Positions 63-39,778 of a stretch of DNA of 40,626 nucleotides are shown one piece after another (within the stretch, counting starts at the first letter, position 1; every line of letters begins with the position of its first letter). A program made the position numbers and the translations under genes. The stretch lies in IMG/VR virus record IMGVR_UViG_3300028557_000082, positions 1 through 40,626 of that record; one strand, 5' to 3'. The notes under the pieces are model-generated. The model did not search any database. It was not told the DNA's origin and saw only the letters and a program-made list of their open reading frames with translations. The DNA is from a virus.

Positions 63-1703
63 TTATAGAGTATTAAGACCGTGTACATATACTTTACCGT
101 AGAACTCAGGACGAACCACTTTCTTCGCGTAACGTGTCATAACACCTTTACGTGGAGTGAAGTTAACTGGATCGTAAACTAATGGAGTCATGATAAGTGG
201 AATGTATGGAGAATAAACAGCACCTGTTTCAAGGAACTGACTACCTCTGAAGCCCATAAGGATTACATTCTCTGTCATGTATGGGTTTTTGTATACAGTG
301 TATCGGTTATTAATTGCACCAATTTTTTGTACACCAGCCGCAAATTCCATTTTAGTACCATCTGTGTCTGCAGCAAATCCTGGGATAGACTCAAGTACAG
401 TAGCTACTGATGGAGAAGTTACTAAGAAGTTTGCACCACCACGTAATGTCTTTTGGTGAATTTTATTAGATACTTTTTGAAGTTTAGTACCTAAAGTTTG
501 GAACCAACCACCTTGAGTGTTATAGAATCCGTCACCTGCAGTACCAACTGAACCAGCAGCTGCTTGTGTAAATCCTGTACCATTCCAGATGTTATTGTTC
601 AATGCAGACCAAAACTCAGTTGTTGGAGCTGCTGAAATCAACATATCTAATATCTCTAAATCAATTTCCATTGATACATACTCAGATAACATTGAAGTCA
701 ATTCAGCTTCAGCATCAATTGAATGGTAAGCGTTTAAATCTTGAGCAAATTCAGGTGTCCAAACTGCTTTCAATTTACGTGTTTTAGCAACAATTGGATC
801 TGATTGTAGTTCCAAGTTAATTTCTGGAATATCAACATCAACATTATAACCATTAGAGAACGTACCAACGTTATCTTCAAAATCACCTCTTGACACGTCA
901 GTTGGTTGTTTGCTATATTTAACTGTTAATGAGAAAGAACCAGTTGTTACTGCTGCTGAGTCAATAACGAAGTCAATAGATCCTACAGTTGTTACATCTA
1001 ATTTAGTAAATGCTGCATAATTAGCAATTGAAGTTGATCCAGAAACTAATGCAAATGAACGAACTGCTAAAGTATCTAAACCAGGTAATGAAGAAGTTGC
1101 AACAGTGATTCTTTTATAAGAAGTCAATGCACTTGTAAAATTACCATCAAAGTTAACAGATCCAGATCCTGCCAAAGAACCAGTAGTAGTTACTGCGGCA
1201 ACACTAGATGTTTCATTGATTGAATAACCAAAACGACCTGCACCATAAAGACCACCTGCTGCGTCAGAACCAGTAGTTGTAACACCAAACAATGAATCTA
1301 ATGCATTAGGGTTACCAAATGGATCACCCGTTCTATTAGAATTGTCATTGTCAAATCCTGGTTGAGCCGTACCATATTTAAAGTCTAAGTAAAATACTAG
1401 ACCTGATGGCAAGTTCATTGGTTGAACTGATACAAATTCTTTAGCTGCAAATTCAGCAAAGATACGACGTACCAATGGAAGTGCAACACCAGCCCACTCT
1501 TCAGATCCATTTGCGGTACCTGTTTGCGATGCTTCTTTTACTAATTGTCTTGCTTGGTTTTCAAGCAATTGAGACATTCCTGCCCTTTCTGTCTCATTTC
1601 TAAGACCTTCTAACAATCCTGTTCTTTCCCATTTACGAACACATGCTTGTGCAGCCGCTCTCTGAGAATTATCAGGACTTTGTAATAATGAATTTAAACT
1701 CAT
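63..1703 (-). CDS. 23: Major capsid protein, T4 gp23-like
   Basis: This 546-residue protein is the hexameric shell subunit of the T4-like head. The identification rests on family features: a phrase near residue 92 with the VQPMN-(S/L)PSG pattern typical of gp23, a segment near residue 310 matching the AK(S/T)R-LKA...AQDL..H-(D)AEAEL signature, and a C-terminal part with YKNPY and a KNFTP-like stretch (VNFTPRKGVMTRY). T4 gp23 is 521 residues, so the length fits. Residues about 115-260 are rich in Gly, Ser and Thr and correspond to the variable surface region. In T4, gp21 cleaves the N-terminus after an (I/L)xE site; LLE motifs occur here near residues 30 and 46, but which is used cannot be told. 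A full SD sequence precedes the start. It is the last gene before a strong terminator. Confidence 0.96.
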   Translation of the reverse strand: MSLNSLLQSPDNSQRAAAQACVRKWERTGLLEGLRNETERAGMSQLLENQARQLVKEASQTGTANGSEEWAGVALPLVRRIFAEFAAKEFVSVQPMNLPSGLVFYLDFKYGTAQPGFDNDNSNRTGDPFGNPNALDSLFGVTTTGSDAAGGLYGAGRFGYSINETSSVAAVTTTGSLAGSGSVNFDGNFTSALTSYKRITVATSSLPGLDTLAVRSFALVSGSTSIANYAAFTKLDVTTVGSIDFVIDSAAVTTGSFSLTVKYSKQPTDVSRGDFEDNVGTFSNGYNVDVDIPEINLELQSDPIVAKTRKLKAVWTPEFAQDLNAYHSIDAEAELTSMLSEYVSMEIDLEILDMLISAAPTTEFWSALNNNIWNGTGFTQAAAGSVGTAGDGFYNTQGGWFQTLGTKLQKVSNKIHQKTLRGGANFLVTSPSVATVLESIPGFAADTDGTKMEFAAGVQKIGAINNRYTVYKNPYMTENVILMGFRGSQFLETGAVYSPYIPLIMTPLVYDPVNFTPRKGVMTRYAKKVVRPEFYGKVYVHGLNTL

Positions 1704-1732: not shown

Positions 1733-2743
1733 TTAAATTAATCCTGCTAATTTTTTCCAACGATTTGCCATTTCAAATCCCTCAGATAAAATTTGCGTTG
1801 TTTGTCGAGATGGCGCAGTAGTAGAACTTGCTCTAGATGCTGCGGATTCTTTTACCATCTTGCGTTTTTGTTGTGGTTTGTTAAAGCTTTCTGCCAATGT
1901 AGCAAATACTAATTTTGCTTCTCTCGGTGAAACTGCTCTATCAAAGTTTTCAATAACTTTCATTTTTTGTCCGTTGTTCAAATCAAAGTTACGGAACAAT
2001 TTGTTTGTGTAAAGAAGTTTTGCATTTAAAAGATTAACTTCGTTGATAACAGACGTAAGGTGTCTAACCGTACGGTATGCTTCTTCTAAGTTTTGTTCCA
2101 ATGCTTCGTTTTCTTTAGCTAGTAATGCTGGATCTTCTGCTGCTGTTGCATCTGCTGTCATTTCATCTTCTTCACGTAGAATTGCTTCAATGATTGAGTT
2201 GATGTCTTCGTCAATAATGTTTGGATCATATGTTGGTTCGTCTGCTGACATATCTTGCTCATACATACCTTCATGATACATCTCTTCCATTTCCATACCA
2301 TCCATTGCATCAACTGGTTCTTCTAATTCTCTTAAAATTTCTTCTAAATTAAGATCATCTTCTTCAGCTTCTGCTCCTGCCTCTGCGCCCATTTCAGCTC
2401 CCATTTCAGCACCGGCTTCTGCTCCTGCCTCTACATCGTCGCCACCTAATAGGCCTGTTAAATCATAATCGCCATCATCATTGAAATCTAATCCAACGTT
2501 AACTGAATCTGGGAATCCTCCCATTTCAGCACCGGCTTCGGCTCCAGCCTCTACATCTGCATCCAAGTCTGTGTTAACCTCAATGTCGTCATCTTCAAGT
2601 TCATTCATTAAGCCATTGTGTAGCATACTTTCAAGTCTTGGAGCGAACGCTTCTTGTAATGCAATTTTTGCGTTTGCTAATGCTGTTTCTTTAACTGCTT
2701 TAGCATCGGCGATTGCTTGTTTTAGCAAATCTGATTTTGCCAT
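1733..2743 (-). CDS. 22: Prohead core scaffold protein, T4 gp22-like
   Basis: This 336-residue, strongly acidic protein is the likely internal scaffold around which gp23 assembles and which gp21 later degrades. Position directly upstream of gp23 and downstream of gp21 matches the T4 order 21-22-23. The N-terminal 50 residues are helical. Residues about 55-130 form an Ala/Glu/Gly/Asp/Met repeat region (units like DVEAGAEAGAEMG), followed by more acidic sequence to about residue 200. Residues 205-300 look like a helical, coiled-coil core. The protein ends in a short basic tail with the phrase WKKLAGLI, a type of ending common in gp22 homologues. T4 gp22 is 269 residues; the excess is accounted for by the acidic repeats. 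The start is fixed by a full SD. Confidence 0.88.
   Translation of the reverse strand: MAKSDLLKQAIADAKAVKETALANAKIALQEAFAPRLESMLHNGLMNELEDDDIEVNTDLDADVEAGAEAGAEMGGFPDSVNVGLDFNDDGDYDLTGLLGGDDVEAGAEAGAEMGAEMGAEAGAEAEEDDLNLEEILRELEEPVDAMDGMEMEEMYHEGMYEQDMSADEPTYDPNIIDEDINSIIEAILREEDEMTADATAAEDPALLAKENEALEQNLEEAYRTVRHLTSVINEVNLLNAKLLYTNKLFRNFDLNNGQKMKVIENFDRAVSPREAKLVFATLAESFNKPQQKRKMVKESAASRASSTTAPSRQTTQILSEGFEMANRWKKLAGLI
2400..2557 (-). repeat. Imperfect direct repeat inside the gp22 gene
   Basis: A 38-bp unit at 2400-2437 recurs at 2520-2557 with two mismatches, both encoding a DVEAGAEAGAEMG-type peptide. Shorter Ala-Glu-Met-Gly units lie between 2373 and 2410. The unit suggests expansion of the acidic scaffold segment by duplication. 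Confidence 0.75.
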
Positions 2744-2932: not shown

Positions 2933-3178
2933 TTAATCTCGGTGCAAGTCTCTTACATGTTGAATAAAACGGGCGGCACTTAATTGTTGTCTACGTTTAG
3001 CACTTGGTTTTGTAAAAGTTTTATTTTCTTTAATTTTTTCTAAAACACCAGCCGATTTTACTTTGCGTTTAAAAATTTTCATTGCTTGTGCAAAATCTTC
3101 TCTAAATGTTCCTACTACATGTACTGCAGTAGCATGGCCAGGTACAATTGATTTGTGTTGTTTTTCTTTTTTACTCAT
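2933..3178 (-). CDS. rpsU: Phage-encoded ribosomal protein bS21 homologue
   Basis: This 81-residue, very basic protein resembles bacterial small-subunit protein bS21, which sits near the anti-Shine-Dalgarno end of 16S rRNA and helps mRNA initiation. Residues about 25-75 match the family: F-(x)4-A-(x)3-FKRK-V-(x)-AGVL, then a KxFxKPSxKRR motif and an Ala/Arg-rich helix. About 20 extra residues precede the usual start. Bacterial bS21 is around 60-70 residues. Free-standing bS21 genes are known from several T4-like and large phages. The gene sits inside the head-assembly block as the last gene of a unit closed by a terminator, so it is probably made late with the head proteins. No SD precedes its ATG. 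Similarity is by eye, but the motif order is distinctive. Confidence 0.87.
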   Translation of the reverse strand: MSKKEKQHKSIVPGHATAVHVVGTFREDFAQAMKIFKRKVKSAGVLEKIKENKTFTKPSAKRRQQLSAARFIQHVRDLHRD

Positions 3179-4075: not shown

Positions 4076-4705
4076 TTATATCCTACATTTTCCGTCATCA
4101 CATAATATTGACGTAATAATACTGTTTACGCAATTATATTTATTTTTTGCTGTATTTGTATCCGTTGATTCATTTATTCCCTTAGGCCGCATAAAAGCAC
4201 CTTGAGTTGATGGATTTGATACGAAGTCCCAACAAATTAATTCAAAATCTTCTTGCACTTCTACTACGCCTTCACTACGTAATTCTTTAACTGAACCCAT
4301 TCCTCTACTAGAAATACCTAAAGTAATTCCTGCTTTAAACAGTGACTTTAAGATATTACCCGATGGCGTTTCAAGAATTTGAACTGCACCTAATAAATCA
4401 TCGCCGTTCCACCATATTTTTAAAACATTGTGAGAAACATTGTTTAAATTGACTACTGATGATTCTGGGTGATCTAATTCACCTAATGCTCTATGTTGAT
4501 CAATATATTCTCGTTGATATCGTTGACATTCGCGCATTAGGATATTTTTAGGATATACACGTCCGTTTTGATTTTTAGCGCCAGCACGTTGCAATACTCC
4601 TTGAACTACAATACCACCAGGAATTCCATATGCAGCACCGCTTTGCTCATTTAATGAACCTACGGGTTTAAATGGTATATATTCTACTATTAATTGCTTT
4701 GACAT
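4076..4705 (-). CDS. 21: Prohead protease, T4 gp21-like
   Basis: This 209-residue protein (T4 gp21 is 212) is the serine protease that matures the prohead by degrading the scaffold and trimming capsid proteins. Visible family features are GxxxxNGRVYPK near residues 43-53, GELDHP with the probable catalytic His79, and the GISSRGMGS motif with the probable nucleophile Ser132 or Ser133. The QEDFELICWDFVSNPST stretch at about 178-194 is also typical of this fold. The order 20-21-22-23 supports it. The C-terminal tail with three Cys (residues about 190-209) is unlike the core and may be a dispensable or self-cleaved end. It starts 3 nt below the upstream stop, so translation is probably coupled. 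Confidence 0.93.
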   Translation of the reverse strand: MSKQLIVEYIPFKPVGSLNEQSGAAYGIPGGIVVQGVLQRAGAKNQNGRVYPKNILMRECQRYQREYIDQHRALGELDHPESSVVNLNNVSHNVLKIWWNGDDLLGAVQILETPSGNILKSLFKAGITLGISSRGMGSVKELRSEGVVEVQEDFELICWDFVSNPSTQGAFMRPKGINESTDTNTAKNKYNCVNSIITSILCDDGKCRI

Positions 4706-6348: not shown

Positions 6349-8184
6349 TTATAAAATATTATTTTCGTCTAATAGCGTTCCTGCATCAGAATCAGCTGGA
6401 TTTGCTTTTTCTAATGATTCTAAAATAATATTAGATGTTTTTGTGTATTTTGAATTTTTCATTATTTTTATAACACTTTCATGAGCCAAATCTAATTTAC
6501 GTTCTCGTCTAGGATCTGGTAAAAATGCTGATTTTTGATTTTCTACATCAAATGCTTGATCTAATTCTTTTTTACCGGTAGGATCCCACCCAAATGCATT
6601 TTTATGTTGTCCAAATTTAATTCCTTCTTTTGGTCGACCACCTTTGTCTTTTTCTTCAACATCATCTGAACTCATATGCATTGATGCTAAATCGTGTGGT
6701 GTACCATATGACACTCCGGTAACAGCTGGGTCATTGCCTTCTTGTTCTAGCTGATTTTGACGGAATCTCAATTTCAAATCTTCAATAACATTGGTACGTT
6801 CTGATAGCCATTGTTCTTCAGTCATGTTAAAGATGTATTCATATATGTATTTATCAGAAACTAATTTTGAATCTTTCATTGATGTTGCTAATGTTATTTT
6901 TTCTGTCATTAATGCAACTTTTTGTTGATCATATATAATTGATGGTGCTGTTAATTCTAATTCAAATCCAACTAAATCTTCACCTTCATAGCCTTGTGCA
7001 TATAAATGAACAATTGCAATTTTATATAATTCTGATGTTACTATTTTTTGAATACGTTCAATTGTCCTAGCAAATCGAATATCCATTGATGCTAAGGTAG
7101 TTTTACCTTCAACTGCTTCTGCATACCCTAAAAATGGTTTAGGAATTTTAAGTGCAGCCATCATTTTGTCTTTAACATAATTGATATCATCAATACCGGT
7201 AAAAGTCATACCCGGTAATGTATCAATTGCCGTGGATGATTGCCCTCCGCGTACTGGCAAATAATAATCTTCCAACATGTTGTTCAAATTAAATTTCAAA
7301 TTGTAATTACCAGTTTGGGCATCAACGTGAGGAATTTTTTTCATTTTATTGATAACTTGTTCCATGAATGTATCTACTTCATTTGGCGGAATATTACCAA
7401 TATCAATTTTAAAAATACGTTTTTCTGGTGCTCGCATTATTCTATGAATAAGCATTGCATCTTCTAACATTGTTAATTTTTGAAATTCTTTACGGGCGCC
7501 TTCTAGCATCGATTTACCGTACGGTAAAAAGTTTGAATCTGATAACATTCGAAAATGTGCTACTTCAAATACATCATACATTAGGCCAGGACTAGATGCA
7601 TGACGAAATTTAATTTTATATTCACCGGTATCTTCAGCAAATTCTTCCCAACGTTCAACTTCATAACTAGAAAAAGGACGAGCATTAATAATACCTAATT
7701 CATTTGCAATATCAAGTTTTAAAAAGAAATCACCGTATTTAGTCATGTTTCGGATCCATGGCCAAAGATTAAATTCTATGTTTAATACATCATAAAATAA
7801 ATTATAAAGTATTTTTTGTATGTGAGTTTTATTTGTTTTAATTGTTAGCATATCACCGAATTGATCTGCTAGAGTTGATTCATCTGCATAAATATCTAAT
7901 GCAGCACTTATAATTGGATCTTTATCCATCATTTCGTAATCAGTGTATAACTGCATACGATTTTGATGCATATAATAATTTGAATCATATCCACCCATAC
8001 CACCAACACGATGTCGATTTGAACCATGTAATCGTGTATATCTGTCAGCTACTTTTGTTTGATTTAGATTACCAGTTGCTTGTAAACGGTTGGTATCTAC
8101 AACTTTAATTTGATCTTTTCCATATGCCCGTACGATAACGTTCGTAGCAAATAGATTTTGTAATCGTTTTCTTAATGATGCCAT
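6349..8184 (-). CDS. 20: Portal vertex protein, T4 gp20-like
   Basis: This 611-residue protein is the dodecameric portal through which DNA is packaged and to which the tail joins (T4 gp20 is 524). Family features include YTDYEMMDKDPIISAALDIYADEST near residue 80, the LPYGKSMLEGARKEF phrase near 222, RAPEKRIFKIDIGN near 255, and the LPVRGG...IDTLPG segment near 310 that precedes the tunnel-loop region. The C-terminal 80 residues are charged and variable. The neighbouring gene at 8231-9808 is the terminase that docks on the portal. It has no SD; the octamer lies 14 nt upstream. Confidence 0.95.
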   Translation of the reverse strand: MASLRKRLQNLFATNVIVRAYGKDQIKVVDTNRLQATGNLNQTKVADRYTRLHGSNRHRVGGMGGYDSNYYMHQNRMQLYTDYEMMDKDPIISAALDIYADESTLADQFGDMLTIKTNKTHIQKILYNLFYDVLNIEFNLWPWIRNMTKYGDFFLKLDIANELGIINARPFSSYEVERWEEFAEDTGEYKIKFRHASSPGLMYDVFEVAHFRMLSDSNFLPYGKSMLEGARKEFQKLTMLEDAMLIHRIMRAPEKRIFKIDIGNIPPNEVDTFMEQVINKMKKIPHVDAQTGNYNLKFNLNNMLEDYYLPVRGGQSSTAIDTLPGMTFTGIDDINYVKDKMMAALKIPKPFLGYAEAVEGKTTLASMDIRFARTIERIQKIVTSELYKIAIVHLYAQGYEGEDLVGFELELTAPSIIYDQQKVALMTEKITLATSMKDSKLVSDKYIYEYIFNMTEEQWLSERTNVIEDLKLRFRQNQLEQEGNDPAVTGVSYGTPHDLASMHMSSDDVEEKDKGGRPKEGIKFGQHKNAFGWDPTGKKELDQAFDVENQKSAFLPDPRRERKLDLAHESVIKIMKNSKYTKTSNIILESLEKANPADSDAGTLLDENNIL

Positions 8185-8230: not shown

Positions 8231-9808
8231 TTATAACAACCAAGTTAAACTTTCGTCGTTATTTCCGTTGTTCCATGTCCAACCAGTGTCTTGTCGTTTT
8301 TGCAAGTTGGTATATATAACCGGATCGGTTTTTGTGAAATGGGATAAGGCACGTTTATTAAGTTCAATGCCTTGTTGTCGCAGTTTAAGTGAGGTATCGC
8401 GTAACCATAACCCAATACAAAATGCCATTACAAGATCATCATTATAACCACTTTGTGATTGAGCTTTGCCATTTAGCCAAATAAATACAAATAATTCTTG
8501 TATTAACCGTTTAGATCTAATTATAGGAGTTCGTTCACGCATATACATTTCAAGGGCTGATATCATTAATGGACGTGTACGTGTGGTTGTCGACACTCCA
8601 GGAACCATTTGGCTCTTATCTTTCATATCATAACCTTTTTTCAATTGTACATCGGCATCAGTATAGCCGTCATCTTTATAGGTATAAAATAGATTTTGAT
8701 AGCCTCTATCTAATGCTGGCTGAATTGCCGCCCATCCGATGTTTGCATTTTCAATTGCTAGCAATGCATTGTTCCATTCCGTAGCAACCGTTACTAACAT
8801 GTTTCCAAAATCATTAGGAGGAATTTTACCTTTGTATTCAGCTACTTGCCGTACATCTAATGTGTCTATAACATGAAATGTTGACCAGTCACCACCATCG
8901 CCACGAGCAACGTCAGCAATAACCATATAATCTCGCGAATAGTCCGGATATTCCCAAACCCAATATGCATTGTCATATCCTCGTTTTTCAATTGGATCTG
9001 TACATTTTTCATCAAATTCCATTAATATGGAACCATCAATCACAGTATGCCCTGATGAAATAAAGTCACAGTCACACTCCTGAGCCGCTCCTCGTTCGCC
9101 TAACAACTGTGTTTGTTGATCTCGCCAAGGTTGGTCTCGTTCTGGGTGTACGGTCCAGTGCAATTTAATTGTATGGAATCCATTGATTGCGGCTTCGGCA
9201 TCTGCCCATGTTTGATGAAACCAATTACCTACTCCATTCGGAGTTGATAATACTATGGCGCCTCCACCCGTTGATAGTGTAGCCTGTGATGCTATCCATA
9301 TTTCTTCAATGTTCCGAATAAATGCAGCCTCATCAATGATTAACAATGATAATGCTTCTGAACGTGCACCGGTTGTTGCGGATGATACTGCTTTTATCTG
9401 TGAACCATTTTTAAATTTAAGTGATAGTTTATTATCAGCTTCAATAGTCCCCTTTAACCAACTTGGTAAATTTTCATGCATCACTCGCACTTTAGTTACT
9501 AAGTTTTTTGCTACTTCTTGTGTTGTTGCAATAACAAGTACATTGAAATCTTCTTTGAACAACATACTCCATAAGGCAAACCCAGCTGACAAAGTTGATA
9601 TTCCTAACTGTCGTGATTTCAATATTACACTGTATCGGTTATCTCGTAATTCTGTTAATGAGTCTTCCTGAAATGGAAATAAATTAAATTTTATCTTTCC
9701 TTTTTTAGGATGTTGTATATAACAATATTGTCTCATAAAAAACACAGGATCTTTAGCACACATTTGATATTGTTGCTGAATAATCTGCTTTATCGTTAGT
9801 TGAGACAT
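8231..9808 (-). CDS. 17: Terminase large subunit, T4 gp17-like
   Basis: This 525-residue protein is the ATPase-nuclease motor that cuts concatemers and pumps DNA into the head. The N-terminal ATPase has an adenine-binding Gln motif (FPFQ, about 45-48), a Walker A-like KSRQLGIST at 64-72, Walker B LLIIDE at 155-160 with Asp159/Glu160, and a coupling motif STPNG near 188-192. The C-terminal RNase H-like nuclease begins with IADVARGDGGD (Asp299), followed by acidic positions near IENAN (about 356) and NDDLVMA. The Walker A lacks the usual Lys before Ser/Thr and instead has Lys64 at the start of the loop, a deviant form known in some terminases such as lambda gpA. The length is shorter than T4 gp17 (610). 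No small terminase subunit was recognised nearby. Confidence 0.94.
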   Translation of the reverse strand: MSQLTIKQIIQQQYQMCAKDPVFFMRQYCYIQHPKKGKIKFNLFPFQEDSLTELRDNRYSVILKSRQLGISTLSAGFALWSMLFKEDFNVLVIATTQEVAKNLVTKVRVMHENLPSWLKGTIEADNKLSLKFKNGSQIKAVSSATTGARSEALSLLIIDEAAFIRNIEEIWIASQATLSTGGGAIVLSTPNGVGNWFHQTWADAEAAINGFHTIKLHWTVHPERDQPWRDQQTQLLGERGAAQECDCDFISSGHTVIDGSILMEFDEKCTDPIEKRGYDNAYWVWEYPDYSRDYMVIADVARGDGGDWSTFHVIDTLDVRQVAEYKGKIPPNDFGNMLVTVATEWNNALLAIENANIGWAAIQPALDRGYQNLFYTYKDDGYTDADVQLKKGYDMKDKSQMVPGVSTTTRTRPLMISALEMYMRERTPIIRSKRLIQELFVFIWLNGKAQSQSGYNDDLVMAFCIGLWLRDTSLKLRQQGIELNKRALSHFTKTDPVIYTNLQKRQDTGWTWNNGNNDESLTWLL

Positions 9809-12094: not shown

Positions 12095-14119
12095 TCACCT
12101 TGCGTATTTTAATACTCCTAGTATTTGATTGACAGGTGCAAATGCTCCGGTTAGCTTATAAGTATTGCCGCCGTAGACAAATACTACTCCTTCTGATGGT
12201 ACAATTGCTTCAAATCCGCCTAATCGCTGTATACGCTTTAATTCATGTTCTAATTTCTTGATACTGTTAATATCATTAGTTGTTTGCAATTCTCGAATTA
12301 AATCTGCTAAATCTCGTTTTAATTCTTGTGCCGACTTAGATGGATTTGCTGCTAAAAAGTTTTGAGCATTTTGTAATACCACTGCACCTAAGCGTAAAAA
12401 TATGCTTTCAAATGGTTCCATATTTTGTTTGTAATACGTTTTAAAATCTTTTTTATCAAATTCAGTTACCCAATTTGCAAAGTCTGGATTGTCTATTAGT
12501 TTTTTAACTGCTACTATGCTTGTTGATTTATCAAAGAATGCCCATCGATTAATTAACAAAGACAATAGGTTATCTGGAATTTCATATCCAACGGCTCGAG
12601 CTTTTTCACGTATTACATCTGCCCACCACGCCTTATGATAATCAGAAACTAAATCTGTATCTTTTAGTCCGTAACGTGTTTTTAATTGATCTACTTCATT
12701 AAAGAATGCAGCTTGTTGATCTTCAAAATCTTCCAATCTACCAATTTTAATTCGTTGCGGTGGTATAAATGAAAATGTTTTTTGTAAGTGTGCATTTGCT
12801 TCTTGTATAATGCCTTGCAGTACGCCACCGCCAGTTAAATCAGTTTCAACTGTGTTACCTTGTTCATCGTATTCAACTAAATTGTGGAATTGCAACACAG
12901 CTACATCATATGAAATAACATTTTTAGTTGCTGGGTAAATAATTTCCATGTTTGCAAATACTCGACCGTTTTTAAAAATACCATTCAATGTTTGTGGATT
13001 GACACGGGTAAATGCTTCTGCTAAATCTTCTGCAGCATTTCCAAATGCATCTGATATAGGTCCGCGGCCTCCGAATTTATCTTGTATTTCTTGTACTGAC
13101 ATCGGATTAATTACAGTGCCTTTATTACGAGCAAATCCGATTTGATTGTTCTTGTATGTTACTTGAATATTTTGACCATCAGTTTTTTCTGTTACTGCGG
13201 CTTCAATGTCTAAACGTCCACCTAATGATCTAGCAATAATTTCTTTAACATCGCCAAATGACAATGAATGATCATCATATGGGTGTGCCATATGGCCTGC
13301 CGCACCACCTTCTTTAATCATTTGAATTGCTTCAGTTAATGGAACTCCATATACAGTTTTTTCAAAATCTTTGAAATCATATACAAATGGTTTTCCAAAA
13401 CTAGAATTTAAAAATTTTTTTAATTTAGCAATTTTATGTTTATGTTTTTCAGCTGTTTTAGGATCCATATATCCTTCCACTACTTGTTTAATATCTTCTT
13501 GTAGTGTTTTAGTCCACCAGTCTTTAGAAAATAATGACTCTTGTACGCCTTTTAATATTTGCCATATATTTTTTACTTCTGCATCGTTTTGGTTAGGATA
13601 TGAAGCTCGAAATGTGGAATAATCATCATTTGCTAATGCAACGCGTATTGTTGATGCCGAAATTGGTTCTCTTGATTTATATAGTAGTGGATCAATGTCA
13701 ATATTTAATTCTGTTGCATCAACTCCAGAAGGAATTTTGCGTCCTTGTTTATCTCCAATTGTTTTGTATTTATCTACATTTGGAACAAATGCTTTTGCTC
13801 GTACGTAATCATCTCCTTTTGTTGATGCTGCCATAGCAAATCGACCTTGTACATCAGATGGAAGTGCAAATAGGTATTCATACGCAGCCATTATAGGAGA
13901 ATTGAATTCTGTTGGCTGTATAGTAATATTTGGATTGCGATTAATTAAATTGAATATATCAATTGTTTTTTCTCGTGTAATTCCGTCTCGGTCTTTAGGT
14001 CCAATTAAAAGTATCACTTTATCAGTATCAGGATGTTGAGCATATCGTTCTGCTAATGCTAAATGAGCTCCGGTTAATGGTTTAAATCCTCCTGGAAATA
14101 ACGTTGTTATTTTATTCAT
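12095..14119 (-). CDS. Bifunctional nucleotidyltransferase / RNA-ligase-like fusion
   Basis: This 674-residue protein joins two enzyme domains. Residues about 1-200 form a HIGH-type cytidylyltransferase-like fold: FPGGFKPLTGAHL at 8-20 (TGAH standing for the (H/T)xGH motif) and ISASTIR at about 152-158, equivalent to the ISSTxxR motif of NMN adenylyltransferases. Residues about 300-660 carry the ligase/capping-enzyme nucleotidyltransferase motifs in order: motif I EKTDGQN with Lys312, FARNKG as Ia, motif III FANMEI with Glu392, motif IV SEGVVF with Glu643 and motif V YKLTG with Lys655. This is the pattern of Rnl2-like RNA ligases, which join or repair RNA via a Lys-AMP intermediate. The substrate of either half is unknown: NMN, other nucleotides or tRNA-related groups are possible for the first. 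Each domain call is confident; the joint function is inference. Confidence 0.85.
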   Translation of the reverse strand: MNKITTLFPGGFKPLTGAHLALAERYAQHPDTDKVILLIGPKDRDGITREKTIDIFNLINRNPNITIQPTEFNSPIMAAYEYLFALPSDVQGRFAMAASTKGDDYVRAKAFVPNVDKYKTIGDKQGRKIPSGVDATELNIDIDPLLYKSREPISASTIRVALANDDYSTFRASYPNQNDAEVKNIWQILKGVQESLFSKDWWTKTLQEDIKQVVEGYMDPKTAEKHKHKIAKLKKFLNSSFGKPFVYDFKDFEKTVYGVPLTEAIQMIKEGGAAGHMAHPYDDHSLSFGDVKEIIARSLGGRLDIEAAVTEKTDGQNIQVTYKNNQIGFARNKGTVINPMSVQEIQDKFGGRGPISDAFGNAAEDLAEAFTRVNPQTLNGIFKNGRVFANMEIIYPATKNVISYDVAVLQFHNLVEYDEQGNTVETDLTGGGVLQGIIQEANAHLQKTFSFIPPQRIKIGRLEDFEDQQAAFFNEVDQLKTRYGLKDTDLVSDYHKAWWADVIREKARAVGYEIPDNLLSLLINRWAFFDKSTSIVAVKKLIDNPDFANWVTEFDKKDFKTYYKQNMEPFESIFLRLGAVVLQNAQNFLAANPSKSAQELKRDLADLIRELQTTNDINSIKKLEHELKRIQRLGGFEAIVPSEGVVFVYGGNTYKLTGAFAPVNQILGVLKYAR

Positions 14120-16875: not shown

Positions 16876-16883
16876 ATAAATAT
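16876..16883 (-). promoter_or_regulatory. ATATTTAT octamer before the 14157-16856 gene
   Basis: Gene-sense ATATTTATATAAAAGATATT, 20 nt before the ATG at 16856. It touches the last base of the upstream stop codon. Confidence 0.5.
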
Positions 16884-19800
16884 CAAACATGATTAATCTT
16901 GCTGTATCCGTCTATCTTGTTTACTTCAATTAAATTATCAACCATATCGCGCATTGAATCAACGTGTGAAATAATTATAGAAAAATCAAATTTGGTGCGG
17001 AAATAATCAAATAGATTTGCCACCGACGAAATGTGTTCTGCGTCTAAACTTCCCCAGCCCTCATCGATTGCTATAAAATTTGGACGGGGCAATGCAGACA
17101 CATTGATAAGTGCTATGCGAATTGCTAAACTAGAAATAAATCTTTCCATACCTGATGTTAATTCTAATGGCCAATAATTATCTTCGTCATAAATAATATA
17201 ACTATTAATATTTTTACCATCAGTATTCATTACCATATTAAATTCAACTATTTGATTAAGTACATTGTTTATTTCTGCTTCAATTTTTGGAAGCGCTTTA
17301 GTAATTAATTCATATGGAATACCATCTCGTTTAACGGATTCTAAGTAATATCCATATGCTTTGTATTCAGTTTCAAGTTGTTGATATCGATCCAATTGTT
17401 GCATTGCGGTAGCTTTCTGTGTTTTTGCTACTTCGATTGCACCGTAATTATTTTTAATTTGATTCTGAATTATTTTAATTTGATCAGATATATTTGTAAT
17501 CTGTTTTTTGCATGATTCGATTTCTATATTAATGGTCTGATTATGTTTAATTGCCGTTTCATTTTGACGAAATGATTCTTGTCGTTCTACGGCCGTTTCT
17601 AATTCTGACTCACGAGTTTGTAAATCACTTTCTAGTATTTGAAGTTGCAATTCATTGCGTTCTTTTGTAATTGCCTTTGTTGCTATAGTATTACGTAATG
17701 TATTAAGTTGTTCTGTTTGTTCAAATACCGGCTTTAATATTTCAATTTCATTGTTTAACGTTACAATTTTTTCTTTTATAGAATCTAATAAGTTTCTATC
17801 TTGGTCAATTGTATTTTGAGCTTCGATTGCATTTTGTACGAAAACGTTAGATGTACAGTATTGGCATTGCGGATCATATTTATGGTCGGCAAGGTGATTA
17901 ATTTTTTCTTGTTTTGCATTTATGGTTTCCTGTTGTTGACGTAATTTTTGTAAAAGTATGTTGACTGAATTTTCTTTTGCTGCGTATTGTTTTGTTTGTT
18001 CTGTTATTGTTGGTATATTAAATTGACTCAATGTTGTTTTATGTTCGCCAATAGTTGCAATCAATGATTCTAAATCAACTTCGGCAGTTTCAATGGCTGT
18101 TTGAATTGATTCAATATGTTCAATTAGCGTTGCTTCTTGTTTTTTCAATTCATCAATGTCCGGGCCATTATATGACTGCTGCATTTTAGTTTCAATTAAT
18201 TCAACAATACGTTCTTGCAATGTATTGCGGCGATCTTGCAATTTATCTTCATCAGTTTCTAATGTATTAATTGTTTCTTGATTGTCGGTAATGATATTAT
18301 CAGAATTAATTATAATTTCAGCAAAATCAGTTTTCTTATAATCCTTTAAACGCCCTGCCGTTTCTTTTATTTCATCTGCAGCAAGTTGATATAGTTGTTC
18401 AAATACCGTAATATCTAAAAATTGTGAAAGTAAATCTTTGCGTTCTTTTTGTGATTTTTCAATAAAATTATTGTTGTCTGCTTGAAGAGAAAATGCCGTT
18501 AAAATAAAATCATCATATGTACCTAGGTAACGACGAATACTTTTATTTGTGTCACTTCGTTCATCACCGTTTAAATTTTCAGTATCAGTATAAAAATTTA
18601 CATCTACTTTTACGTGAGTTGGATGTTTTTTATTTTTTGTGCCGCGGCGTTCAATTGTATATGTTATTCCATTCATCTCAAAACAAAATACACCTCGGAA
18701 CCATGTTTTTTTATTATTTAAAACTTCGTTAGCTTTACCAGTTTTGCTACATTTATCAAATATAGTATATGTTATTGCATCTAATAAACTAGATTTACCT
18801 GATGTATTTGCTGCAAATAATCCACATACATCTGATAAATTTTCAAAATTAATAACATTGCCTTCGCCATATGAAAACATATTATCAAATTCAAATGATA
18901 TCGGATGCCATGTTGTATGTCGGATTGATTCAACTGCTGGTAGTCTAGAATTTATTGTGCGATTGATATGTCTAATTGCATCAACTTCTTCTGCCGTAGC
19001 TTGGGGAAAATGTAAATCTATATGATCTGACAACAATGTATTTTGATATTCAACGTCACGTACATTGCCAATAGCTAAACTAGATGATGCTACCGTTGCC
19101 CCATGATCAATAGTACGTTGAATTGTTATGTCTTGAACATTGTATTTTTTACGAATAGTTGCAATTAGTTTTTTCATACCAGCTGCACTTGTACCATTAA
19201 ATTTAATTCTGATACGAGGTTTATTTGGCATTCGGTGTGGATAATTAGTTATCTTATCACCCTGAGTCTCCACCGTAACATAACCATAATCATTTTCAAT
19301 TTGTACAAATTCAGCACTACGTGTTTCAACATCCCATACAAGTATTCCGTGGTCTAATGCTTCTCCGTGATTTTGTTGTATAAGTGAACCTGCATATGCA
19401 ATTGTTTGTTCTTTATTTAAAAATTGAGCCGGTTTATGTATATCACCTAACAATGTAATGTCATGACCTGCAAATAATTCTGTAGTAACATGCTCATTTG
19501 ATATTTGATAACCAATATCAGTTTTTGCAGTATTAACCGCTCCATGGTGAAGTGCAATTTTATATGTAGCATCAAATTGATCTGCTCGAATATAATCCGC
19601 CGGTGACTTATCAACTGCCATATGATTCCACGTAATACCACCTAATTCAAAAAGTCCGTTATCCTTTATAAAATGAATATTTTTATTACGTATAACATCT
19701 AATACTGGACTTACGGCATCAACGCGATGCATATTATTGAGATTCATGTCATGATTACCAAGAATAACAACGGTAGGTATTTGGAATCCGTTAAAGAAAT

Positions 19801-20029
19801 CAACTAGCATTTGAACTAGTTCGGGTGACATATCTAATTTGCTATGCACAATGTCTCCGGTAACAACCGCAATGCTATTGCCGGTGCAATGTGTTTCTAT
19901 ACAATTAAATAAATTTTCAAATACCGATCGGTATTCTCCGTGACGTTTCAAAGTACGAATATGTATATCCGAAATATGAAATATTTTATCAATCTGCGTG
20001 ATCGATGTATCAATATGTTTTATGTCCAT
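16883..20029 (-). CDS. Fused Mre11-Rad50-type recombination nuclease (gp47+gp46)
   Basis: This 1048-residue protein joins in one chain the nuclease and the SMC-type ATPase that T4 makes from genes 47 and 46. These process DNA ends for recombination-dependent replication. Residues 1-345 are the metallophosphoesterase: DIH with Asp21/His23, GD at 58-59, GNHD at 91-94, then LHHGAV and GDIHKP. From about 375 the Rad50 part starts with FDNMFSYGEG, Walker A NTSGKSS with Lys412, long coiled coils with a zinc hook CQYC (Cys722/Cys725) near the middle, the LTSGMERF signature near 960, and Walker B FIAIDEGWGSLD with Asp989/Glu990. All key residues are intact. Its start overlaps the primase end, so the two are coupled. 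Confidence 0.94.
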   Translation of the reverse strand: MDIKHIDTSITQIDKIFHISDIHIRTLKRHGEYRSVFENLFNCIETHCTGNSIAVVTGDIVHSKLDMSPELVQMLVDFFNGFQIPTVVILGNHDMNLNNMHRVDAVSPVLDVIRNKNIHFIKDNGLFELGGITWNHMAVDKSPADYIRADQFDATYKIALHHGAVNTAKTDIGYQISNEHVTTELFAGHDITLLGDIHKPAQFLNKEQTIAYAGSLIQQNHGEALDHGILVWDVETRSAEFVQIENDYGYVTVETQGDKITNYPHRMPNKPRIRIKFNGTSAAGMKKLIATIRKKYNVQDITIQRTIDHGATVASSSLAIGNVRDVEYQNTLLSDHIDLHFPQATAEEVDAIRHINRTINSRLPAVESIRHTTWHPISFEFDNMFSYGEGNVINFENLSDVCGLFAANTSGKSSLLDAITYTIFDKCSKTGKANEVLNNKKTWFRGVFCFEMNGITYTIERRGTKNKKHPTHVKVDVNFYTDTENLNGDERSDTNKSIRRYLGTYDDFILTAFSLQADNNNFIEKSQKERKDLLSQFLDITVFEQLYQLAADEIKETAGRLKDYKKTDFAEIIINSDNIITDNQETINTLETDEDKLQDRRNTLQERIVELIETKMQQSYNGPDIDELKKQEATLIEHIESIQTAIETAEVDLESLIATIGEHKTTLSQFNIPTITEQTKQYAAKENSVNILLQKLRQQQETINAKQEKINHLADHKYDPQCQYCTSNVFVQNAIEAQNTIDQDRNLLDSIKEKIVTLNNEIEILKPVFEQTEQLNTLRNTIATKAITKERNELQLQILESDLQTRESELETAVERQESFRQNETAIKHNQTINIEIESCKKQITNISDQIKIIQNQIKNNYGAIEVAKTQKATAMQQLDRYQQLETEYKAYGYYLESVKRDGIPYELITKALPKIEAEINNVLNQIVEFNMVMNTDGKNINSYIIYDEDNYWPLELTSGMERFISSLAIRIALINVSALPRPNFIAIDEGWGSLDAEHISSVANLFDYFRTKFDFSIIISHVDSMRDMVDNLIEVNKIDGYSKINHV

Positions 20030-21647: not shown

Positions 21648-22193
21648 TTACCAATCTACTAATACTAATTTATTATTCCATATCATCATATTTGACGAAC
21701 TAAAATCTAAATCTAATTCAAAATCCGGAATGTCTAATTTTTCAACATCTCGTTGCAAAGCACGTATAAAATTTACAAGTGCAACATTTGTATTTCGTGC
21801 ACCATCTGCATCTAAAAAATCAAATATAGAAACTTCCCCGCCTTCTGATCTTGCAAATTGTTTAAATTGCTCCATAAATTTATCAATAGTAATACGATCG
21901 GATTCTGGCAATGTTTCTGCATTTGCCATTATATATAATTGTTCTCGATCACTAATATAATATACCGGTATAAAACATGTAAATTCAGCTGACCGATTTA
22001 CAATAATTGTAGCAACTTCAAATTCATCGCGTTCAGTGGTAATTTTAAAAACTTTATCTTCTCCATCAATCTCATAGACACGGCCATTATCACCTCCACC
22101 GATTAAACGAAATTGTTTGTTTTTTATTTTATCTAACAATCTAGTTTTTTCTGAGTCAGATAACTCACGCAAAAGTTGTTTTAATCTTATCAT
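21648..22193 (-). CDS. Minimal protein-kinase-like protein
   Basis: This 181-residue protein has the residues of a kinase-like fold in the right order: a Gly-rich loop GGGDNGRVYE at 32-41, VFKIT with Lys50 in the place of the ATP-binding Lys, an acidic helix with Glu57/Glu59, a hinge-like LYIMANAE near 86-93, a catalytic-loop-like DFSSSN with Asp163 and Asn168, and LVDW with Asp180 in the DFG position. The chain stops one residue after that Asp, so no activation segment or distal C-lobe follows. It could be a small kinase-like enzyme (protein or small molecule) or a non-enzymatic binder. Its ATG overlaps the stop of the upstream structural gene (ATGA), so it is made with the tail proteins. 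Confidence 0.72.
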   Translation of the reverse strand: MIRLKQLLRELSDSEKTRLLDKIKNKQFRLIGGGDNGRVYEIDGEDKVFKITTERDEFEVATIIVNRSAEFTCFIPVYYISDREQLYIMANAETLPESDRITIDKFMEQFKQFARSEGGEVSIFDFLDADGARNTNVALVNFIRALQRDVEKLDIPDFELDLDFSSSNMMIWNNKLVLVDW

Positions 22194-38749: not shown

Positions 38750-39778
38750 TTAATCTAAAATTAATGCGGTATTTTCTTGACAACACCTAACACCTAATTG
38801 CAACAATGATTGCTCCTTAGCCTTTGCTTCTACCACAATATCTAAGATATCAACACCATATGTATTAGGTAACTGAGTAATATAATCTGCATGAGCTTGT
38901 TCTTTAATCTTGGTAAACTCTTTGTATTGTTTTTGGAAGGTAGGCCATTTAGCTAAATCCTCCATTGCAATATTATGATGCTTAAACATACCTTCTATGA
39001 GGATTTGGGACTCTCTGCGACGTGATTCTGAATAGTGGGTACATTGGGTTACGTTATGTCTATCCCACGTCTCGCGAGCTAAAAAGAAGGCTTCACGCTC
39101 GGTTAAATCACCGGTATTGAAAGTGTGATGCCAATAGTCAAACGTTATCGGAATCGCAGTAGGAACATGCAAATACTCATATAATTCTCGTACAGAATAC
39201 ATTGATGCCTTGTCATCATTTTCAATAACTAACCGTGCACGACACGAATCTGATAAACGATAATAGTTAGCTAACCACCGGGCAATAGTACCAGGCTTAT
39301 CATTGTAAGTAGCACCAATATGTATATTGATCTTATTTTCAAAGCTAGGTGCAAACCCCATAAGATCAAATAACTCACTGTGTCGTTCTAAACTAACAAG
39401 GCTGTTATCAACAATCGTAGCATCCGGACTACCTAGGATATGAAACATACCTGGATGCGTTGTAATGCGATGCCCATGTTGCTTTGCAAAGTCACCGGCA
39501 GCACGAAGATACTGAGTAATTTCGGCAATACCTGGCAGTGCATGCAACTCATAATGATTCCAACGAGGAAACAATTCAGAACCTAAACGGAATAGGCGAA
39601 TGCCATTTTCTTCGTTCCATTTAAGTATAGTTAAAAAATCTTTTGCATTAGCAAGTGCAATATCAGAAGCTAATTGTAAACCGCCAATTTTAAATTTGCG
39701 CTCAATCATTGTACGACCGGTGCGGATACTAGATGTAGATAGGTGCATATTATTACAGGCATAACCTAGTCGAATCAT
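38750..39778 (-). CDS. uvdE: UV damage endonuclease (UvdE/UvsE family)
   Basis: This 342-residue protein matches the UV-damage endonuclease family, TIM-barrel enzymes that nick DNA 5' of photoproducts and start an alternative excision repair. Signature segments: the N-terminal MIRLGYACNN, the FRLGSELFPRW phrase near residue 63, RITTHPGMFHILGSPD near 105, NIHIGATYNDKPG near 150, ARLVIENDD near 184, the PITFDYWHH near 213, and HYSESR near 247. Metal-binding His and acidic residues appear in the expected order. The family is common in bacteria and some phages. It likely repairs sunlight damage to phage DNA, consistent with a surface-water habitat. It lies alone between the small-gene unit and the HNH gene. 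Confidence 0.93.
   Translation of the reverse strand: MIRLGYACNNMHLSTSSIRTGRTMIERKFKIGGLQLASDIALANAKDFLTILKWNEENGIRLFRLGSELFPRWNHYELHALPGIAEITQYLRAAGDFAKQHGHRITTHPGMFHILGSPDATIVDNSLVSLERHSELFDLMGFAPSFENKINIHIGATYNDKPGTIARWLANYYRLSDSCRARLVIENDDKASMYSVRELYEYLHVPTAIPITFDYWHHTFNTGDLTEREAFFLARETWDRHNVTQCTHYSESRRRESQILIEGMFKHHNIAMEDLAKWPTFQKQYKEFTKIKEQAHADYITQLPNTYGVDILDIVVEAKAKEQSLLQLGVRCCQENTALILD

Follow-up and report, generated by a model that had tools for sequence, protein, structure and literature searches.

The window analysed here, a stretch of 40,626 nucleotides (positions 1 to 40,626 of IMG/VR virus record IMGVR_UViG_3300028557_000082), encodes a 674-residue protein that joins a HIGH-type nucleotidyltransferase domain to a domain with an RNA-ligase fold. 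The open reading frame lies on the minus strand, running from 14119 to 12095, and the plus strand of this interval is full of stops. The first-pass annotation had placed the boundaries exactly and left the strand unstated. The motifs that it named (T16-G-A-H19, I153-S-A-S-T-I-R159, K312-T-D-G, FARNKG with R331, E392, E643 and K655) were all found in the translation, and chance is excluded as an explanation. The features of the gene, apart from the candidate cleavage sites listed further below, are as follows.

12095..14119, minus strand: HIGH nucleotidyltransferase and RNA-ligase-fold gene, 674 aa
13550..14119, minus strand: HIGH-superfamily nucleotidyltransferase domain, residues 1-190 (Pfam, Foldseek, profile comparison)
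14063..14074, minus strand: T16-G-A-H19, a (T/H)xGH variant; H19 invariant among near relatives
13643..13663, minus strand: I153-S-A-S-T-I-R159, ISxTxxR-type; S154 and R159 invariant among near relatives
13310..13549, minus strand: linker, residues 191-270, mostly disordered and fast-evolving
12098..13309, minus strand: predicted divergent ATP-dependent RNA-ligase-fold domain, residues 271-674 (model, Foldseek, invariant residues)
13184..13186, minus strand: K312, predicted nucleophile, in motif I (KTDG); invariant
12944..12946, minus strand: E392, motif III; invariant
12191..12193, minus strand: E643, motif IV (EG, E643-G644); invariant
12155..12157, minus strand: K655, motif V; invariant

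Two enzyme folds in one chain

The AlphaFold2 model of the full protein (49 relatives) has both halves folded, with a mean pLDDT of 78.6, and Foldseek returned matches for each half, in agreement with the two-enzyme architecture first read from the motifs. For residues 1-190, Pfam CTP_transf_like was matched under its cut-off (E 0.0029), and the structural matches were NaMNAT (8aih, E 1.2e-4, probability 1.00), NadM (2qjo) and PPAT. The Rossmann-like HIGH fold is thus present, as is the ISASTIR motif on which the original domain call relied; the other motif reads TGAH rather than (T/H)xGH. This position differs by group, being TGAH in the window protein, HDGH in Lak-type relatives and GPHH in most marine relatives. 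The sequence profile of the window domain is nearest to PPAT (3nd5, E 1.6e-5), and that of the marine version is nearest to archaeal NMNAT/NadM.

The placement with NaMNAT, NMNAT and PPAT speaks for an earlier proposal that the domain acts in NAD metabolism. An NMN/NaMN adenylyltransferase could refill NAD+ after an NADase defence, and a tRNA-repairing ligase could be bundled with it as an unrelated tool, as unrelated activities are in polyvalent proteins (described in sections of Iyer et al., PMC5512222). However, among curated NMN adenylyltransferase families in NCBIfam the best match to the HIGH domain is far under the cut-off. NadV (nicotinamide phosphoribosyltransferase, PF04095) was not found in five phages or large contigs with such a HIGH protein outside the Lak lineage (Mel-JY01, immuto, S-PM2 and two large family contigs, the latter perhaps incomplete). 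Every NadM-bearing phage surveyed elsewhere also has NadV (PMC9503650), and NAD salvage is therefore weakened. Bundling of unrelated tools also does not predict the repeated and specific HIGH-ligase pairing described below, and we consider this explanation improbable. The phage NadM/NadR bifunctional NMN adenylyltransferases likewise fuse a HIGH-superfamily domain to a second enzyme, but their partner is a Nudix or kinase domain and not a ligase, and the window family differs from them also in the missing NadV and the unmet family cut-offs. In the Lak-A1 phage (MK250016.1) the HIGH domain is a stand-alone protein of 207 aa; the phage also encodes a NAPRTase homologue and, elsewhere, several RNA_ligase matches.

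Plain searches of Pfam, PHROGs, NCBIfam and PDB sequences did not name the ligase above cut-off, and structure was therefore used. Modelled alone, the ligase domain has a pLDDT of 89.6 and a pTM of 0.85. Its best PDB match is T4 Rnl1 (9do4, E 2.2e-4, probability 0.97); T4 Rnl2, archaeal RNA ligases and Trl1 also rank near the top, the first ten include a single DNA ligase, and the Naegleria RNA ligase ranks lower. The C-terminal half of the full model matched T4 Rnl2 and fungal Trl1. The TM-scores of the ligase matches are near 0.2, a low value that the domain positions and the large helical insertion separating motifs III and IV probably explain. Residues K312, D314, G315, R331, E392, E643 and K655 are invariant in 24 ligase sequences with identity down to 29%, which supports the assignment of Lys312 as the catalytic lysine. 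The lack of a ligase fold in this half, which would have overturned the first-pass call, was not observed.

The predicted ligase fold, and with it motifs I, III, IV and V, is shared with T4 Rnl1, T4 Rnl2 and Trl1. The Rnl2 subfamily proposed at first is not singled out: structural matches are spread about equally over Rnl1, Rnl2 and Trl1, the helical insertion sets the protein apart from all three, and it is assignable to neither Rnl1 nor Rnl2. Pfam RNA_ligase, the highest-scoring of the named families, is matched weakly in 8 of 24 family members and scores 14.9 bits against a gathering score of 27 bits. We therefore call residues 271-674 a divergent RNA-ligase-fold enzyme; the model indicates an ATP-dependent RNA-ligase fold, and enzyme activity is predicted. 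Matches to HEPN_AbiA (residues 545-627) and to phrog_11759 were at or near chance level and were set aside.

The conservation of both halves also bears on whether the long chain is cargo or a scaffold-filling head protein only, with degenerate enzyme domains. Such decay would fit the GPHH variant that most marine relatives have at the HIGH motif, and T4 degrades its core proteins gp22, gp67 and gp68 (according to excerpts of PMC9958956). Against this, the catalytic residues of the ligase are all invariant in the 24 diverse members, and dN/dS is 0.05-0.20 in the HIGH half and 0.05-0.10 in the ligase half. We thus regard degenerate cargo as very improbable.

Recurrent pairing of the two enzymes

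Relatives of the 674-residue protein are encoded in 277 IMG/VR stretches, and a query with the protein of Microcystis phage Mel-JY01 confirmed 304 stretches, which may overlap with the 277. Of 50,697 public phage records, just three contain the ligase: Mel-JY01, where it is fused to the HIGH domain (WWT39297, 639 aa), LR756508, where the ligase-bearing protein has 915 aa, and LR756500, where ligase and HIGH are separate, neighbouring genes 31 bp apart. A scan of viral contigs with the 915-residue LR756508 protein gave no match. By terminase and major capsid protein, the closest cultured relatives of the window phage are Mel-JY01 and Flavobacterium phage immuto. Motif searches of complete ORFs identified both domains in 75/75 window-type proteins and in 24/26 marine and other proteins, and a Lake Baikal contig (L171) has the domain order reversed.

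A Foldseek comparison of the window ligase with viral models matched a 591-residue protein of Synechococcus phage S-PM2 (E 1.2e-5), which its length and annotation identify as S-PM2d138. Residues 1-400 of this protein belong to DUF6267 (PF19782, phrog_455), an uncharacterised family in which the KxDG, EG and K motifs are invariant, and the C-terminal end is a HIGH domain. S-PM2d138 is matched in one or both parts by 548 phage records, mainly of T4-like cyanophages, and in the cyanophages examined DUF6267 and HIGH are neighbouring, mostly overlapping genes. The sequence comparison of DUF6267 with the window ligase (hhalign, probability 5.9, E 0.006) is not significant alone, and the equivalence of the two therefore rests on the Foldseek structure and the shared motifs. 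DUF6267 and the cyanophage cytidyltransferase thus resemble the window protein in the ligase-like fold, the KxDG...EG...K motifs and the adjacent or fused HIGH partner; they differ in the order, ligase then HIGH, in having almost no sequence similarity, and in their location outside the head-gene region (after gp41/mazG). No L/I-x-E site separates the two domains of the S-PM2 fusion, which also lies outside the head genes. Pairing therefore does not require packaging.

The HIGH domain and the RNA-ligase-fold enzyme recur as partners, either fused, in one order or the other, or encoded by adjacent genes. They may form an undescribed two-enzyme module of T4-like phages whose range would run from cyanophages, with DUF6267 and cytidyltransferase, to jumbo phages of aquatic and gut origin. 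The ligase would use the HIGH product, whether as nucleotide donor or as a group to be attached to RNA, and one branch would deliver the module as a precursor cut by the prohead protease; we offer this wider reading tentatively, as the odds seem to us to lie against it. Each ingredient has been described before: RNA ligases and HIGH enzymes, as well as polyvalent proteins and head proteins that are injected. In the literature searched, which covered few subscription papers, we found neither the HIGH-ligase combination nor enzyme modules set apart by prohead-protease sites, and no account of DUF6267 as a ligase. The first-pass reading had overlooked the adjacent-gene pairs and the swapped fusions.

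Linker junctions and head-gene context

Residues 192-223 and 251-275 are disordered in the AlphaFold2 model (pLDDT below 50), and dN/dS is highest in the linker in four of five comparisons. The linker is also rich in (L/I)-x-E, which we take to be the consensus of the T4 prohead protease gp21: [LI]xE[GASTDN] occurs 37.4 times per 1000 residues in the linker, 1.8 times in the HIGH half and 5.2 times in the ligase half. The candidate sites, with bars at the putative cuts, are the following.

13538..13546, minus strand: V-Q-E194|S; [LIV]xE in 30/38
13496..13504, minus strand: L-Q-E208|D, at the end of a CTS-like stretch SLFSKDWWTKTLQE; [LIV]xE in 30/38
13475..13483, minus strand: V-V-E215|G; 24/38
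13331..13339, minus strand: L-T-E263|A; 22/38
13310..13318, minus strand: I268-K-E270|GG, the strongest candidate; 38/38

The last of these is shared widely. At 78 distinct ligase-side junctions from all branches, P3 is L in 46, I in 31 and V in 1, 12 residue types occur at P2, and P1, which is followed by GG, is E in 76 and M in 2; (L/I)-x-E|GG is present in all but three. The ligases that occur alone have short leaders with the same ending (LILE|GG in LR756500 and PILE|GG in a second locus, L178). The conserved E270-G-G could serve the ligase instead of a protease. The distant prohead protease of SPN3US cuts at AxE (as given in part of PMC7411985).

The fusion gene lies in a late-gene series on one strand, with baseplate and tail genes upstream and the following head genes downstream.

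8231..9808, minus strand: terminase large subunit, T4 gp17 type (Pfam Terminase_6N, E 4.5e-14; synteny)
6349..8184, minus strand: portal protein, T4 gp20 type (Pfam Portal_T4, E 5e-67)
4076..4705, minus strand: head maturation (prohead) protease, gp21 family, the proposed processing enzyme (phrog_207, E 1.7e-54)
1733..2743, minus strand: probable acidic scaffold protein (position and sequence), with KIALQE|A near its N-terminus
63..1703, minus strand: major head protein (phrog_138, E 5e-67)

Among the 83 loci whose sequence continues for 5 kb or more past the gene, 81 have the terminase downstream on the same strand. The scaffold ORF has a match at the corresponding place in immuto, and the propeptide of the major head protein has LLE/ILE sites common to two relatives. 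Similar sites occur within the phage group in the protease N-terminus, the scaffold and the major capsid protein propeptide. The protease-site-rich character of the linker and the head-gene setting had both escaped the first description of this locus. SbcC-like and primase genes also sit between the baseplate genes and the fusion gene. The former belongs to a 1048-residue ORF (16883-20029, minus strand) that joins a calcineurin-like phosphoesterase (SbcD/gp47-like) to an SbcC/gp46-like ATPase, parts that are two genes in S-PM2. A ribosomal protein S21 homologue (2933-3178, minus strand; phrog_21469, E 1.8e-6) is encoded within the head gene cluster.

Most complete marine relatives have between 1000 and 1900 residues, and they carry added segments: a zeta-toxin/AAA_33-type kinase, PF05618 (Zn_protease), ParB-like and Pol-beta-like domains. 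Their N-termini resemble capsid-targeting leaders (e.g., MKKLTEWLVKPFLKE|D), with [LI]xE at positions 12-26 in 15 of 17 marine N-termini versus 54 of 186 other ORFs. At cassette breakpoints away from the ligase junction, [LI]xE falls within 8 residues in 31% versus 13% by chance; [LI]xD, [LI]xK and [AG]xE are not enriched and [KR]xE is (19% versus 9%), and since the breakpoint sequences are related to each other these figures are indicative. At L131, L149, L141, L173 and other marine loci the encoded chains reach 1400-1900 residues and contain several cassettes with E-ending junctions between them; the unnamed conserved cassettes among these include 'STTLLTPTDDGPPTFYKGFSDY' and 'DDVMDKKIKYKTKDG'. 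The marine kinase might at most be a T4-type polynucleotide kinase, since apart from AAA_33/zeta-toxin profiles it matched just L-seryl-tRNA kinase, and that weakly; the Pol-beta-like domain might at most be RlaP, with no PDB match and a weak one to NTP_transf_2.

These observations have to be weighed against an uncut bifunctional cytoplasmic enzyme, in which the ligase would use or complement the nucleotide product of the HIGH domain and the linker would be a flexible tether, with no packaging in the head. The cyanophage pair located outside the head genes and the S-PM2 fusion that has no site between its domains speak for such an enzyme. The window protein, moreover, has no N-terminal targeting leader, its HIGH domain beginning at residue 1-5, and this counts against packaging. 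A tether does not, however, readily account for a nearly strict (L/I)xE|GG with a free P2 in a disordered, variable linker, nor for the CTS-like leaders of relatives and the location of the gene among head genes. We consider the uncut enzyme unlikely, while giving it real weight.

Proposed delivery with the DNA

In the reading that we favour, with a probability of about 0.55 for the whole of it (precursor, packaging, cleavage, injection and partner enzymes together), a T4-like phage makes the protein from a late gene as a precursor: a virion protein of the 'polyvalent' kind, divided into segments by prohead-protease sites, that is cut in the head and whose two partner enzymes are injected with the DNA for one early nucleotide-transfer or RNA-repair task. 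The fusion protein would probably be co-assembled into the prohead core, where the phage's own prohead protease would cut the L/I-x-E sites of the disordered linker. Cleavage would free two enzymes, one adenylyltransferase-like and of the HIGH family, the other resembling ATP-dependent RNA ligases, and both would be carried inside the head and reach the host cell together with the DNA. In the cell they may share a single task of nucleotide transfer or RNA repair during the first minutes after infection; the most plausible such task is the rescue of host-damaged RNA such as cleaved tRNA. Repair of tRNA by the ligase is plausible; Mel-JY01 has a conventional RNA ligase elsewhere, beside an AAA gene and a tRNA gene, and the fusion may therefore have a different substrate and is not the sole candidate for tRNA repair in that phage.

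The proposed route, from prohead core through cutting by the prohead protease to injection with DNA, is that of the T4 internal proteins IPI-III and Alt, whose leaders are removed by gp21 (according to portions of PMC9958956 and PMC7411985). Several relatives of the window protein begin with a comparable 12-18-residue leader ending in L/I-x-E. Unlike in the T4 proteins, the candidate sites of the window protein lie between two enzymes and not in an N-terminal leader, and its presence in virions is predicted from the genes.

Polyvalent proteins of phages and conjugative elements, also proposed to be injected with DNA (sections of Iyer et al. 2017, PMC5512222), are alike in combining disparate enzyme domains in one chain and in their late or virion-gene context. 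The sections of that paper used here describe no RNA ligase or HIGH-ligase pairing, and they attribute processing to a built-in metallopeptidase, whereas the window candidate sites fit the prohead protease instead. In the same region immuto encodes a 907-residue protein with Pol-beta-like and HIGH domains and two HExxH motifs, which fits the pattern of polyvalent proteins as laid out in those sections. This protein (gp088, NC_055915.1, L180:7132-9855) is annotated as NadR, which is probably misleading, and its HExxH motifs are zincin-like.

If the delivery reading is true, T4-like phages may bring RNA-ligase-type enzymes into the cell ready-made with their DNA, from precursors cut by the capsid-maturation protease. 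It would also offer a testable function for two large uncharacterised families, the window ligase family and the cyanophage DUF6267, which with its HIGH partner occurs in hundreds of sequenced phages. L/I-x-E between domains would then be a simple sequence rule for finding packaged multi-enzyme cargo.

Other genes of the window include an endonuclease of family phrog_8420 (38750-39778, minus strand; E 7e-37), probably of the UV-damage endonuclease type. Near the primase gene, a 181-residue ORF (21648-22193, minus strand) resembles a small protein-kinase fold (GGGDNGRVYEI...KVFKI).
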